Positions 11,059-58,101 of a DNA stretch of 64,000 nucleotides are shown here, one piece after another. Source of the DNA: Candidatus Zixiibacteriota bacterium (GTDB lineage Bacteria; Zixibacteria; MSB-5A5; JAABVY01); the NCBI GenBank assembly GCA_011056555.1, contig DSEQ01000001.1, positions 1 to 64,000 of the forward strand. The letters are read 5' to 3'. The position numbers were made by a program, and so were the translations under genes. Numbering within the stretch: position 1 is the first letter of the stretch; each line of letters opens with the position of its first letter. The notes beneath the pieces were generated by a model. It worked only from the letters and a program-made list of their open reading frames with translations, did no database searches and was not told the origin of the DNA.

Positions 11059-11967
11059 TTATACCACAGTTGAAAGTGTTTTATACATAATAATCAGCGC
11101 AGGCCCGACCAGAATGACCAGCAGTTCGGGAAATATTAGAAGGACCAGCGGGAATACCAGCTTCACCGAGGTCTTGTTGGCTCTTTCCTCGGCATTCTGC
11201 CTGCGTTTGAACCTCATTGAATCCGCTAAGACTCTCAATGATTCGGCGATGCTTGTTCCCAGCTTCTCGGCCTGGATCAGGGTGATTGCCAACGACCTGA
11301 TTTCCTCCACCCCGGTCCTGTCGGCCAGATTCCTGAAGGCATCCTGTTTGGAACCGCCGATCAGGAATTCCTGGGTTAGAAGGTGCAGCTCCTCGTACAG
11401 GGGGTTTCTGCTGCCGCGATTTTCATTCACTATTCTATGAATGGCCGCGGTGAAACTCAGGCCGGCCTCAGCACAGACAACCATCAGATCCAGGACATTG
11501 GGAACCGCTCTTCTGATTTCTTCTCTGCGCTTAACAATTTTGTGCATGACCCAGATTTTGGGGATAACGGCTCCCACAACAACACCCACGAATATAATTG
11601 CGGTCATTTCCGCCGAATTGAGGTGCAGGTAGAAACCGAGCATCGCTGCTGATACAGTAAAAAACAAGGTGGTCAGCAGCCTGCTGCCGTAATAATTCGA
11701 TACACTCTGGGGCTTTCTGTATCCAGCCTTGGCCAGCCATAATTTGATATAAGATGACTGCTGATTGTTCTCCCCCCAGAGAGAGAGACCTTTCTTGCGT
11801 GCGGCATTTGACTTCTTCTTCAGGTACTCCGCGTTATTCTGCAACTCTCCCAACCTGCGCCTGAGAGGATTTTTGGCCCTGGAGTACATGTAGAGTAATG
11901 TAAATGCCAGCAAAAAGCCGGATACGAAAACGAAGGAAATAATTAAATATATATCCATTACATCCAC
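11059..11967 (-). CDS. tadC: Tad pilus inner-membrane platform protein TadC
   Basis: This 302-residue protein contains a T2SSF (GspF-like) domain. A membrane helix near the N-terminus is followed by a basic cytoplasmic stretch, two middle helices, the conserved domain (EIRRAVPNVLDLMVVCAEAG...AA) and C-terminal helices. TadB and TadC together form the inner-membrane platform on which the TadA ATPase assembles Flp pilin. Its start abuts the tadB stop. Order and size match TadC in other Tad loci. Confidence 0.9.
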   Translation of the reverse strand: MDVMDIYLIISFVFVSGFLLAFTLLYMYSRAKNPLRRRLGELQNNAEYLKKKSNAARKKGLSLWGENNQQSSYIKLWLAKAGYRKPQSVSNYYGSRLLTTLFFTVSAAMLGFYLHLNSAEMTAIIFVGVVVGAVIPKIWVMHKIVKRREEIRRAVPNVLDLMVVCAEAGLSFTAAIHRIVNENRGSRNPLYEELHLLTQEFLIGGSKQDAFRNLADRTGVEEIRSLAITLIQAEKLGTSIAESLRVLADSMRFKRRQNAEERANKTSVKLVFPLVLLIFPELLVILVGPALIIMYKTLSTVV

Positions 11968-31541: not shown

Positions 31542-32039
31542 ATGGCGACGATAAAAGGTAAAGTCCACAAATATGGCGATGACATCAATACCGATGTGAT
31601 CTTCCCGGGAAAATATACCTACACCGTAACAGATCCCGAGGAGATGGCGCAGCATGCCATGGAGGACCTCGATCCGGATTTTGTCAAAACTGTCGAGGAT
31701 GGCGATATCGTGGTTGGCGGTACGAATTTCGGCTGTGGCTCCTCGCGTGAGCAGGCGGTTAAATGCCTGAAATTCGCCGGGGTGGGGGCGGTGATAGCAA
31801 AAACATTTGCACGTATCTACTTCCGCAACCTTATAAATAACGGCGTGCCGGCCATCGTCCAGCCCGAACTGGTTGACAAGGTCAAGAAAGGCGACAGGCT
31901 CGAGATCGACCTGGAGAAGGGGAAGATTAAGTCTCCTTACGGTGAATTTGATTTTCCCGCCTACGCCCCTGAAATCATGGCTATCATGAAAGAGGGCGGC
32001 CTGATTCCGTACACGAAAAAAAAGCTGGGGACGGCATAA
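31542..32039 (+). CDS. leuD: 3-isopropylmalate dehydratase small subunit (LeuD/HacB-like)
   Basis: The track start at 31407 is too early. The ATG at 31542 (MATIKGK) has AGGAGGT 7 nt upstream. The 165-residue product has the swivel-domain motifs of the short LeuD type: YGDDINTDVIFPG, GTNFGCGSSREQA and ARIYFRNLINNG. With a large subunit (not in the window) it isomerises isopropylmalate or a homologous acid in leucine or related synthesis. It is solitary here, as often seen for archaeal-type LeuCD in genomes of this kind. Confidence 0.88.
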   Translation: MATIKGKVHKYGDDINTDVIFPGKYTYTVTDPEEMAQHAMEDLDPDFVKTVEDGDIVVGGTNFGCGSSREQAVKCLKFAGVGAVIAKTFARIYFRNLINNGVPAIVQPELVDKVKKGDRLEIDLEKGKIKSPYGEFDFPAYAPEIMAIMKEGGLIPYTKKKLGTA

Positions 32040-32062
32040 AGTCAGCTATATATCTTGTTGAA

Positions 32063-32122
32063 CAGGTTCCCTGCGAACCTGGCGACGATATAATTGGCAT
32101 GATCACAAAGATCATGCCCTAC
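32063..32122. repeat. Double-hairpin intergenic repeat, copy 1 (partly decayed)
   Basis: CAGGTTC-cctgc-GAACCTG is followed after 16 nt by CATGATC-acaaa-GATCATG and CCCTAC. The first hairpin is identical to that at 57713-57796, while the second has a different, still perfectly paired stem. The 5' GTAGGG end present in the other copy is missing here. Confidence 0.7.
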
Positions 32123-32136
32123 ACCAGAATAGTCCA

Positions 32137-32805
32137 ATGCTCAAAGACAAAATAGTAGAGCTCAATCCCGAACGCGTGCTGGATATCGGCTGCCGTGACG
32201 GCTCCTTCACCGCCGAATTGTCCCAATACTGCGGTGAAATTATTGCCATAGACATAAATCCGGATGCTGTCGAACGAGCCCTGAAAGACAATTCAAAATC
32301 CAATATAGAATACATGGTTGGGGATGGGCGCTCGGTGGAATTCGATGATGCCGGCTTCGACCTGGTTTATGAGAAGGATGCGCTTCATCATATTAAAGAG
32401 TGGCAACAGGCGGTTGATGAGATGCTCAGGCTGTCCTCGAACTATGTTCTGATTGAGGAACCGTTGAATGATCCCCGCAGTGAAGCCAAGCGCAACGCCA
32501 TCATGGCCCAGGAGTTCTTCCTGGAGGTGCAGCGAGAGGCCGGCTATTCGCATTTTAAATATATTTCACTCGAGACCCTGAAAGGCTATTTGAAACATAA
32601 GGGCTTAAATTTCGAAATCGAAATTGAGAAGTGCGATGAGCCGGAAACATATGAGCATCATTTCGACCAGTTTGAGGAATTTGCCTTCAAGACCGGGCGC
32701 GGGGATTACTGGATGAAGCGGCTGGATGATTTTCTGGATGAGATGAAAGGCAGGCCGATCTGCCAATCCGATACATTATTCATCGAAGTCAGGAAGCTAA
32801 AGTAA
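32137..32805 (+). CDS. SAM-dependent class I methyltransferase
   Basis: This 222-residue protein has motif I VLDIGCRDGSFTAEL at about residues 15-29, an acidic residue after strand 2 (IAIDIN), and a post-I segment (DLVYEKDALHHI) usual for the methyltransferase 11 type. The C-terminal half is charged and not typical of a known substrate class. No ribosome binding site is visible before the ATG, which follows a repeat by 15 nt. The substrate is unknown. Confidence 0.8.
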   Translation: MLKDKIVELNPERVLDIGCRDGSFTAELSQYCGEIIAIDINPDAVERALKDNSKSNIEYMVGDGRSVEFDDAGFDLVYEKDALHHIKEWQQAVDEMLRLSSNYVLIEEPLNDPRSEAKRNAIMAQEFFLEVQREAGYSHFKYISLETLKGYLKHKGLNFEIEIEKCDEPETYEHHFDQFEEFAFKTGRGDYWMKRLDDFLDEMKGRPICQSDTLFIEVRKLK

Positions 32806-35867: not shown

Positions 35868-35983
35868 GTCATTGCGAGCCTGGCTGCAGCCGGGCGTGGC
35901 AATCTCTTAGTTTAGTCTGATAGCACAGCGGAGGAGATTCCCACGTCGATCATAATCCGAGATTATGATCTCCTCGGAATGAC
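35868..35983. repeat. MITE-like element with GTCATTGCGAG ends
   Basis: GTCATTGCGAG (35868-35878) and CTCGGAATGAC (35973-35983) form near-perfect terminal inverted repeats. Inside are GGCAATCTC and GAGATTCCCACG as a second inverted pair, and ATCATAATC-cga-GATTATGAT as an internal hairpin. It is about 116 bp, has no coding capacity, and resembles short palindromic elements seen in many bacterial genomes. A partial copy lies at 57646-57692. Confidence 0.65.
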
Positions 35984-55031: not shown

Positions 55032-55768
55032 TGTCAGACCTACTTAGAGACAAAGTTGTCCTTGTGACCGGCTCTAGCCGCGGACTGGGTAAGACCATTG
55101 CCAGACGTTATCTTGAGGAAGGCGCGAGAGTAATAATCACCAGTCAGCAATCGGATGAGCTCGATCAGGCTGCGGAAGAGTTGAAGCGGGCCTCGGATCA
55201 ACTTAGAAAAGTCGTGGCGGATATAACAGATGACTCTCAGGCCAAGAAACTTGTCGACAGCGCAATCCAGGAATTCGGACAGATAGATATTCTCATAAAT
55301 AATGCCGGTGTATTCAAAGGCGGCGAAATTGATCAGATGGACGTCAAGGACTTCGAGCTGACATTCAATGTCAATGTCAAGGGCGCATTTCTGGTCACCC
55401 GTCATGCTGTGGCGCAGATGAAGAAGCAGAAGTCGGGGCAGATTGTAAATATCTGCTCGATCGGCTCCAAGCTGGGCATGGAAAAGCTCTCGGCCTACTG
55501 CGCCTCCAAGGCTGCTCTTGCTCGTTTCGGCGACAGCTTAAAAGCCGAGCTCAAACCGTATAATATTCGGGTCACCAATGTCATGCCGCACGCCATGAAC
55601 ACGATGGGCAAGAATATCGATCCGGATTCCGACGACCGCCGTAAGATGATTGAACCCGATGATGTCGCCGATGCCATTATTGCGATAACTTCAGCGGAAG
55701 ATTATGTTCAGTACCAGGACATAACGATCTTCCCCAAGTCCACAAAACTGACCAAGACAGAAGAATAA
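55031..55768 (+). CDS. Short-chain dehydrogenase/reductase (last gene of pterin operon)
   Basis: This 245-residue SDR has TGSSRGLGKT as cofactor site, NNAG, active-site Ser (ICSIGS) and YCASKAAL. The start ATG overlaps the FolE2 stop (TGATG). Being coupled to PTPS and FolE2, it most probably reduces the pyruvoyl side chain of the tetrahydropterin, as sepiapterin reductase does. A FabG-like role cannot be excluded from sequence. Confidence 0.85.
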   Translation: MSDLLRDKVVLVTGSSRGLGKTIARRYLEEGARVIITSQQSDELDQAAEELKRASDQLRKVVADITDDSQAKKLVDSAIQEFGQIDILINNAGVFKGGEIDQMDVKDFELTFNVNVKGAFLVTRHAVAQMKKQKSGQIVNICSIGSKLGMEKLSAYCASKAALARFGDSLKAELKPYNIRVTNVMPHAMNTMGKNIDPDSDDRRKMIEPDDVADAIIAITSAEDYVQYQDITIFPKSTKLTKTEE

Positions 55769-55827: not shown

Positions 55828-55883
55828 GTAGGTCAAAAGTCTGTGACTTTTGACATCGTCAAATCTCAAAGAGATTTGACCTC
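55828..55883. repeat. Double-hairpin intergenic repeat, copy 2
   Basis: After GTAG come two adjacent perfect 10-bp hairpins: GTCAAAAGTC-tgt-GACTTTTGAC, then atc, then GTCAAATCTC-aaa-GAGATTTGAC, and CTC. The outer GGTCAAA and TTTGACC can also pair. The design is the same as at 57713-57796, with quite different stem words. Confidence 0.75.
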
Positions 55884-55940
55884 ATAACATAAGTCAAACC
55901 TTTTTAGGCTACCGATAATTGATTATTTTTATTATATGTC

Positions 55941-55982
55941 GCGCAGGGTCTTGCCTCGACTTGTCTAGGTGTGACCCTGCGC
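55941..55982. repeat. GCGCAGGGTC palindrome, copy 2
   Basis: Perfect arms GCGCAGGGTC and GACCCTGCGC enclose 22 nt, as in copy 1 at 35710-35751. The loop is inverted relative to copy 1. Its internal stem (CCTAGAC-aa-GTCGAGG on the minus strand) pairs except at one position. Confidence 0.75.
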
Positions 55983-56017
55983 AATTCTGGTCGTCAGATA
56001 CTGGAGAGCCAACCCGA

Positions 56018-56584
56018 TTAGCGGCCGTTCGAAATGGTAACCGGAACCGGATTGGAGAGCATATCCAGCACAGGCGAGGTCTTCTTGACATGTGCCCAGA
56101 GTTCCTCGACCTTTTCCGGCGGAGCATCACAGTCCACACGATATTTCAGATTGATATCCTTGTAGCCCGGACGGACCTGGTCCGAAAGCCCTAGGAAACC
56201 ATGCAGATCCATCTTCCCCTCAAGGTCGAACTCGAGATTCTTGACATTGATACCCTGAGCCGCGGCATTGTAAGAAAATCCCACTGCCAGACACGATGCC
56301 AGCGCATGAAGCACCGATTCAACTGCATTGGGGGCCTTGTTAGAGCCGAGTAATACCGGCGGCTCATCACCGTCCATAACAAACTCTCTGCTCCGGGACT
56401 TATCTTCCTGCCCTGCGCCATAAAAGCCCTTTATCATGGTTTGGGAATAGCCCCCATCGAGCCATTTAGTCGAGGCGCGGAAATTGAACTGTGCCAGTTC
56501 CGGGTTCTCCTTGATAGCGTTGATAGTATCAACAAGCTGTTCGACATTTACACCGTTGGGATAAGTTTTCTCTTTAGTGGACAT
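56018..56584 (-). CDS. OsmC/Ohr-family protein
   Basis: The track start at 56695 is too early. The ATG at 56584 has AGGAGAG upstream. The 188-residue product has VESVLHALASCLAVGF with the first catalytic Cys of OsmC proteins. The second Cys position reads KTSPVLDMLSNPVPV, with Ser in its place, as in a common OsmC subgroup. It may be a peroxide or thiol-related protein with one active Cys. It is transcribed alone. Confidence 0.85.
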   Translation of the reverse strand: MSTKEKTYPNGVNVEQLVDTINAIKENPELAQFNFRASTKWLDGGYSQTMIKGFYGAGQEDKSRSREFVMDGDEPPVLLGSNKAPNAVESVLHALASCLAVGFSYNAAAQGINVKNLEFDLEGKMDLHGFLGLSDQVRPGYKDINLKYRVDCDAPPEKVEELWAHVKKTSPVLDMLSNPVPVTISNGR

Positions 56585-56816
56585 ATTCTCTCCTGTTTTT
56601 AATGGTGAACAAAAAAGCGGGCGACAGATGCTGGTTATCGCCCGTGTTTTAATCTTGTAATTGAAATCCCGGCCTGATGGTTCCCGTATGTCCATATTTT
56701 TAAATGGATACGGGAGTTTCCCGTCCAGAATGCGGGATATCGTTGCGAGAATGAAAACCCCGGGCGTTGCGGAAACGTATTGTTAATTAGTATTCATTGG
56801 TATTGAGGAGGATATT

Positions 56817-57176
56817 ATGGGATTGGTTATTCTTGAGGAACTTCCCAGGATCGTTATCGCGGACGGGATTAATGGCAAGGCCGTGACAGCCGGTACGATG
56901 ACTGTTATGCATGTCAACCTGGATAAGGGCGCGATCGTTCCGGAGCATTCACATTACCATGAGCAGGTCGTGAATGTTATCGAGGGTGAACTGGAGCTCA
57001 CGGTCGATGGCGAGAAGTTCAGTTTAACGGCGGGTAAGGTTATGGTTCTGCCGCCCAACATCGTGCATTCAGGGCGGGCGAAGACCGAGGTGAGGGTGAT
57101 CGATGTGTTCCATCCGGTGCGGGAGGATTTCGCCGGTTCAGATTTTGGCGGATACAGCCAATCGGATGCCGATTGA
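56817..57176 (+). CDS. Cupin-domain protein
   Basis: This 119-residue small beta-barrel has both cupin motifs: IVPEHSHYHEQVVNVIEGELEL (metal ligands His, His, Glu) and VMVLPPNIVHSG (last His). GAGGAGG lies 7 nt before the ATG. It is a single-domain cytoplasmic protein that could be a sugar or quercetinase-type binding protein. The substrate is unknown. Confidence 0.87.
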   Translation: MGLVILEELPRIVIADGINGKAVTAGTMTVMHVNLDKGAIVPEHSHYHEQVVNVIEGELELTVDGEKFSLTAGKVMVLPPNIVHSGRAKTEVRVIDVFHPVREDFAGSDFGGYSQSDAD

Positions 57177-57186
57177 TATGGCTGAT

Positions 57187-57212
57187 AAAAAAACCCGCCG
57201 GTAAATGACGGG
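57187..57212 (-). terminator. Intrinsic terminator of the small membrane protein gene
   Basis: On the minus strand CCCGTC-atttacc-GGCGGG is followed by TTTTTTT. It lies about 30 nt past the stop at 57243. It also lies 11 nt after the cupin gene stop, which ends from the other side. Confidence 0.75.
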
Positions 57213-57242
57213 CTTAATCTCTGGTACTGGGCAATCGTCCTC

Positions 57243-57500
57243 TTAGACCGGTGTTGTCTTGGCGAGCTTGGTCAGGGCCTGTCTTGCTTCCTCGAGACGT
57301 TCTCGCAGGGACACAATTTCCTCTTCCATTTGTTCAGTCTGGCTGGCTCTCTTTTTGATCAATACCCTGAACAAGAGCCCCAGCGAAACGAGCATAAACA
57401 TTATCGCGTTTGCACTGCGGAAGACCTGTCCATAGTTGAATATGCTGTCGAGCAAAGCCATAACACCCAGGGCAAATAGAATCATACACCATACAAGCAT
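57243..57500 (-). CDS. Small membrane protein with C-terminal coiled coil
   Basis: This 85-residue protein has two membrane helices (about 1-18 and 30-48) joined by a short loop, then a charged heptad-like helix (QMEEEIVSLRERLEEARQALTKL) in the cytoplasm. AAGGAG lies upstream. It is similar in build to small envelope proteins of phage-shock or LiaF-like type but matches no family I know. Confidence 0.6.
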   Translation of the reverse strand: MLVWCMILFALGVMALLDSIFNYGQVFRSANAIMFMLVSLGLLFRVLIKKRASQTEQMEEEIVSLRERLEEARQALTKLAKTTPV

Positions 57501-57645
57501 TGTAATCTCCTTAGCGGCATCAGATTTTTGGAATCATAGACCTATTTTTATATCGGCTGTTTAGATTAATAATATACTTTTTTTGATTGGATTAGAAACC
57601 GGCCATAAATGGCGGGTCACCAATATTGATATCATAACGAATCCC

Positions 57646-57692
57646 GTCATTGCGAGGAGCCCCGACATTGCCGAGGGCGACGTGGCAATCTC
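57646..57692. repeat. Partial GTCATTGCGAG element
   Basis: GTCATTGCGAG starts it and GTGGCAATCTC ends it, as in the left half of the element at 35868-35983. The right half is not present. Confidence 0.6.
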
Positions 57693-57712
57693 ATATTTTC
57701 GATGCAGAAATC

Positions 57713-57796
57713 GTAGGGCAGGTTCCCTGCGAACCTGCCAACGCTGAAAACGAGGTCAATAATGAAATAGGCAGGACCACAGGGGTCCTGCCCTAC
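57713..57796. repeat. Double-hairpin intergenic repeat, copy 3 (complete)
   Basis: GTAGGG is followed by CAGGTTC-cctgc-GAACCTG, a spacer of about 33 nt, then GGCAGGACC and GGTCCTGCC around a 4-nt centre, and CCCTAC. Both ends (GTAGGGCAGG and CCTGCCCTAC) pair too. Confidence 0.75.
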
Positions 57797-57924
57797 CTCT
57801 TATAGCTCGTGCGCGGCCATGTCGGGTCAGATGGAGTACGTCCTCGTGCGGCGCTTCTTTTGAGTTAGTGGGCGGCGTACCTCCCGGTGCGCCGCGAGTG
57901 AGGAATTTTGTTTCCTATGTAGTG

Positions 57925-57964
57925 AGTTTGTATTTAGGAGCAACATAGCAGGATGCCCGGCTAA
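57925..57964 (+). repeat. 40-bp direct repeat, first copy
   Basis: Matches the second copy at 58015-58054 at 35 of 40 positions, all five differences being transitions. Both copies end in AGCAGGATGCCCGGCTAA, and both are followed by a word CATG(T)GGGGTA. Confidence 0.75.
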
Positions 57965-58014
57965 ATCAGTCAGGCGCCTGACCTTCGGCCCACATTTCAT
58001 GTGGGGTACCAGTT

Positions 58015-58054
58015 AGTTTACATTTAAGAACAACACAGCAGGATGCCCGGCTAA
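58015..58054 (+). repeat. 40-bp direct repeat, second copy
   Basis: Second copy of the 57925-57964 repeat. It lies 47 nt before the AT-rich nuclease gene. Confidence 0.75.
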
Positions 58055-58101
58055 TCCCATGTTTTCATGTGGGGTATAGGTGAATTATTAGGAAATAATA
58101 A

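Follow-up and report, generated by a model that had tools for sequence, protein, structure and literature searches.

The stretch of DNA analysed here (the window, 64 kb, on contig 18 of a Candidatus Zixiibacteriota genome of 3.58 Mb in 55 contigs) contains three intergenic sites that each fold as two hairpins. The first one lies between convergent genes that end at 55768 (+) and 56018 (-). It comprises a unit at 55828-55854 (+ strand; GTAG and a 10 bp stem, GTCAAAAGTC/GACTTTTGAC, with loop TGT; 37.7 bits) and, after a spacer of 3 nt, an inverted partner at 55858-55882 (- strand; stem GTCAAATCTC/GAGATTTGAC, loop TTT; 27.9 bits) whose GTAG foot has decayed; the paired spans are 55832-55854 and 55858-55880, 10 bp each. 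The second site is formed by a unit at 57713-57739 (+ strand; GTAG and a 9 bp stem, GGCAGGTTC/GAACCTGCC, with loop CCTGC; 38.9 bits) and its partner at 57770-57796 (- strand; GTAG and stem GGCAGGACC/GGTCCTGCC, loop CCTGT; 39.8 bits), separated by 30 nt and with paired spans 57717-57739 and 57770-57792, 9 bp each. At the third site, placed between a stop codon at 32039 and an ATG at 32137, a decayed unit at 32057-32084 (+ strand; core CAGGTTC/GAACCTG, loop CCTGC; 15.9 bits) is followed by a unit at 32096-32122 (- strand; GTAG and stem GGCATGATC/GATCATGCC, loop TTTGT; 36.0 bits); pairing extends over 7 bp in the first (32063-32081) and 9 bp in the second (32096-32118). All six hairpins are present where the preliminary description of this DNA had placed them, but the common plan that it had proposed, GTAG-hairpin-spacer-hairpin-C(C)TAC, is complete with both feet intact only at 57713-57796. 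At 55828-55883 the right foot reads CCTCA for CCTAC, and 32057-32122 has GTTG for GTAG as its left foot, with a shortened first stem. Folded as single-stranded DNA, the double-hairpin sites gave z values from -5.6 to -7.2 and no shuffled sequence was equally stable. A search of the window against Rfam 15 returned only a tRNA, with no hairpin above any gathering cut-off. An unpaired GTAG located 5' of a palindrome of 20-40 nt is the mark of GTAG-REPs, and it is found here with the exception of the units at 55858-55882 and 32057-32084, whose feet have decayed. A BIME (or REPIN) consists of two REPs in opposite orientation separated by a spacer, and each of the three sites is one, that at 57713-57796 being intact.

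These elements are repeated throughout the genome. A strict pattern, GTAGGKC-N6-YYTGY-N6-GMC, in which GTAGGKC, the loop YYTGY and GMC are fixed and six bases on each side of the stem are left free, had 13 matches in the 3.58 Mb against none for the reversed pattern, and the N6 arms were fully complementary in all 13. A looser pattern gave 92 matches, a mixture of background and a palindromic set, and in 41 of them the six unforced pairs were all formed, whereas a chance of 1 in 4 for each pair predicts about 0.02 such matches. Among 29 distinct units the covariation score was 0.698, compared to 0.224 ± 0.026 for shuffles, with slid controls not exceeding 0.17; as these units were picked partly for their palindromy, the unbiased evidence is that of the strict- and loose-pattern counts. 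In the same 29 units 98.5% of the pair cells are paired, and 7 of the 9 pairs have changed on both sides. According to this, the earlier proposal that selection or copying acts on structure is well supported. A covariance model recovered at least about 60 full units in at least 41 clusters, numbers that are a lower bound since 150 of 1295 candidates were scored, and the alternative that only these few copies without a common plan existed in the genome does not hold.

One unit measures 27 nt and consists of GTAG, a stem of 9-10 bp and a loop of 3-5 nt. Three stem subfamilies can be distinguished: A (GGC..GCC, with a loop that is mostly CCTGY), to which the sites at 57713 and 32057 belong, B (GTCAAA..TTTGAC, with a loop that is often TGT), which includes the pair at 55828, and C (GTCAA..CCTGAAGGG..TTGAC). 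Units are single or in inward pairs, and the clusters found included 16 with the order '+-', one '+-+-', one '-+' and one '++'. Two A pairs, on contigs C14 and C26, have a third, internal hairpin in common within the spacer. A-type BIMEs with a common third spacer hairpin (GCCGACAAATTAATTTGTCGGC or close to it) were seen at loci L031 (609-706), L037 (483-577) and L041 (from 511 onwards), which suggests that the composite of an A-type BIME and a third hairpin has been copied as one unit. The sequences at C46:411-441 and C26:25101-25131 look like fusions through deletion of the middle of a pair. In some C-type REPs (L031, about 780-830; L038, about 11240-11300) a further hairpin (gtaggtcaaaccctgaaggccggcttgtcggccggaggggcttgac) is inserted into the loop, so that the structure branches.

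The preliminary description had stated that the repeats were not explained by any gene. This is correct locally, but elsewhere the genome encodes a REP-associated tyrosine transposase (RAYT) in a gene that has these REPs on both sides, and GTAG-tagged hairpins in other organisms are attributed to genes of this family. The gene is at C4:14220-14765 (-), on another contig than the window, preceded at close range by a B-type pair (C4:14788-14844) and followed, just past its stop, by a REP with foot GCAG (C4:14161-14187), so that the linkage to RAYT known for GTAG-REPs (the REPtron) is found at this locus and for subfamily B only. Its product scored 124 bits against the family NF047646 (REP-associated tyrosine transposase), whose cut-off is 80, and its best match of solved structure was TnpA-REP (4er8); the HUH motif, the single catalytic Tyr of the Y1 transposase fold and the WQ..R positions are conserved in the alignment, the roles of the aligned TnpA-REP residues being those given in PMC6006769. 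The named relatives of this protein are mostly from Candidatus Zixiibacteriota. The genome has six full-length RAYT-like genes, and because a scan found no REPs within about 1.5 kb of the other five (on C3, C5, C11, C13 and C30; loci L007, L002, L003, L004 and L008), we have not assigned them to these REPs. None of the RAYT genes of this genome was found to have A-type REPs beside it, and GGC-type REPs flank RAYTs in genomes G007 and G027. Furthermore, RAYTs of related Zixibacteria have inward GTAG REPs alongside, with stem words other than those of this genome (among them GTCGAAACC, GTCAGGATC, GTCAGGAGC, GGCAGAACC, CCGGGGTCCC and CGTCCTCAC). REP-like units were present in 25 of the 30 genomes of the class that were searched, the source genome included, and RAYT-family matches in 28 of the same 30.

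All these data strongly support that the hairpins are GTAG-tagged REP elements organised in head-to-head pairs, a kind of repeat well known in other bacteria. They probably represent non-autonomous mobile elements that a RAYT, a 'domesticated' single-strand transposase, copies and spreads in trans, and we hold this explanation with high confidence. By this mechanism the transposase would recognise a single-stranded 5' GTAG guide together with the folded hairpin and would cleave nearby, so that most letters of the stem could change provided that both sides change together, while a copy that had lost its pairing would no longer be copied. Stem variants would then spread by copying as ready-paired words, with changes of pairs in place or exchange of words on top of this, and the copies that survive would be those between genes, for the most part downstream of stop codons. 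In vitro, GTAG was reported to be essential for the E. coli TnpA-REP, which remained active when the upper stem was replaced by its complement (PMC8266576); by analogy, a similar tolerance in the enzyme described here would let stem words drift while they remain paired.

Comparison with two congeners gives a view of individual sites. Around 55828, G002 has 89-90% identity to this genome, but in place of the stretch with the pair it has some tens of bases of unrelated sequence; in G001 the pair is present after the same gene. The difference may reflect either a gain at this site or a loss in G002, and presence or absence of this kind would support mobilisation by RAYT cleavage only indirectly. 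The pair at 32057-32122 lies between the same two genes in G001, where the right stem is GGCAGGACC for GGCATGATC: two pairs differ and both sides have changed. The G001 arm has its outermost pair and its foot broken and is otherwise still paired. This is the phenomenon of stems that change and stay paired, seen at one orthologous site. The word ATGACC, a one-pair intermediate, is present elsewhere in G001, which makes both a stepwise paired change and an exchange with another copy possible. These two compensated pairs, and the rarity of half-changed stems in the 29 units, would also be obtained if mutation itself kept the pairing, through template switching at replication forks that perfects imperfect hairpins by changing both sides in one event. 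We consider this unlikely, as it leaves unexplained the constant GTAG foot, the high copy number and the linkage to RAYT, and the same few stem words recur at many sites, which favours copying. Moreover, template switching is compatible with mobility by RAYT and competes with it only as to how the stems change.

Regarding the genomic position of the REPs, none of the 41 clusters found was inside a gene, although the window is 86.5% coding. Genes were predicted with a simple home-made caller based on codon usage that ignores RNA genes, so that single cases may be wrong, and by this prediction tandem gaps contained 21 of the clusters, convergent gaps 12 and divergent gaps 5; the remaining 3 were at the edge of a contig. 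Divergent gaps are avoided (5 of 38 clusters, against 42% of the non-coding bases of the window; P = 1.4e-4). The extragenic, mainly tandem or convergent, location is that of GTAG-REPs, for which the same preference of gaps is reported in the pertinent passages of Di Nocera et al. (2013; PMC3733652), and the expectation of the preliminary description that copies would be found after stop codons was borne out. Such a location, together with the strong folding, could be proposed for regulatory RNA hairpins of the host, either terminators or stabilisers of mRNA 3' ends, in which an RNA function would keep the stems paired, and the same passages indicate that REPs can act in this way secondarily. 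It is nevertheless very improbable as the primary explanation. The hairpins lack a T run, terminator-like sites near them numbered 3 when 2.7 were expected, and the GTAG tag, the inward pairing, the flanking of RAYT genes and the absence from the orthologous site of G002 would have no explanation. In the case of intrinsic terminators (a G+C hairpin with a T run) there was no excess over shuffles, and the single REP arm among such sites is followed, on the minus strand, by a weak T-rich tail. Chance occurrence of short palindromes with a coincidental GTAG does produce single GTAG-hairpins, from 0 to 3 in each shuffled window, but it can be dismissed in view of the strict- (13 against 0) and loose-pattern (41 of 92) counts and of the like elements in 25 of 30 genomes.

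The elements described here resemble the GTAG-REP superfamily, as presented in those passages of Di Nocera et al. (2013), in the 5' GTAG beside a short stem-loop, the alternative complementary residues in the stems of one family, the head-to-head dimers with a preference for unlike partners, the intergenic location that favours tandem and convergent gaps, and the linkage to RAYT. Stems that change but stay paired, head-to-head dimers and the avoidance of divergent gaps are thus already published for GTAG-REPs. This comparison was made at the level of the general plan; 24 consensus families have been published for the superfamily, and Zixibacteria do not figure in the passages. Our literature search found no description of GTAG-REPs or of RAYT-REP linkage in Candidatus Zixiibacteriota; the REP families of this phylum appear to be undescribed in the literature searched, and this work extends both to a little-studied phylum. 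As in the BIMEs or REPINs of Bertels and Rainey (2011; PMC3116915), two inverted REPs are joined by a spacer, fusions by deletion of two REPs occur, and the minus strand of 57713-57796 can fold into a single long hairpin. In contrast, the spacers of subfamily B, of 3-5 nt, are much shorter than in the 71 bp unit of P. fluorescens, and the two arms have different stems. The C4 protein shares with the E. coli TnpA-REP (PDB 4er8) the HUH motif, the catalytic Tyr in YIxxNPVKHG, the aligned WQ and R positions for guide binding, and a gene flanked by its own REPs, although it has diverged (80 bits by phmmer). In addition, the stem of E. coli REPs must contain a bulge (PMC8266576), whereas the stems described here are perfect.

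The unlike arms deserve further comment. In this genome and G001 together, the two stems differed in all 41 inward pairs. Among all the Zixibacteria loci that we fetched, homodimers were absent from the 48 pairs with spacers below 10 nt and represented 8 of the 43 with spacers of 10 nt or more (Fisher P = 0.0017), although these 8 come from only two word combinations and their independence is limited. Shuffling the words gave a weak test (P = 0.15 in this genome alone; P = 0.08 in G001); with the stem types kept apart P was 0.00015, and on distinct word combinations only it was borderline, P = 0.058, because copies are not independent. Identical stems only at wider spacing are expected if long perfect palindromes are purged. 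We tentatively propose, as a possibility that falls somewhat short of probable, that the dimer drives stem diversification: close partners would need unlike stems, since two identical ones would together form a long perfect palindrome subject to cutting or deletion, and a compensated stem change would be an escape by which the hairpins stay mobile and distinct from each other. In the passages of Di Nocera et al. (2013) that deal with it, the heterodimer preference has 'no obvious explanation' and protection from SbcCD-type clearance is suggested; the proposal, if true, would bear on that point. The many distinct stems and very short spacers make the preference for unlike partners countable across genomes.

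Finally, other repeats were observed in the vicinity of the REPs. The sequence GTCATTGCGAGGAGCCCCGACATTGCCGAGGGCGACGTGGCAATCTC at 57646-57695 is part of another interspersed repeat, and GTCATTGCGAGGAGC near REPs was also seen in L026/L088 (C5), in L034/L102 (C19) and in loci of G013 and G001. A second repeat-like stretch extends over 57800-58060, in which 57909-58011 is 84% identical over 104 bp to a sequence on C6 (L090) and 57921-57964 is repeated at 58011-58054. Sequence similar to GTACGTCCTCGTGCG lies beside REPs on C4, C15, C19 and C46. At 35933-35983, 51 bp around the hairpin GATCATAATCCGAGATTATGATC are identical to L102:2990-3040 (C19) and 96% alike at L102:5903-5952, and this is an interspersed hairpin repeat without a GTAG foot.
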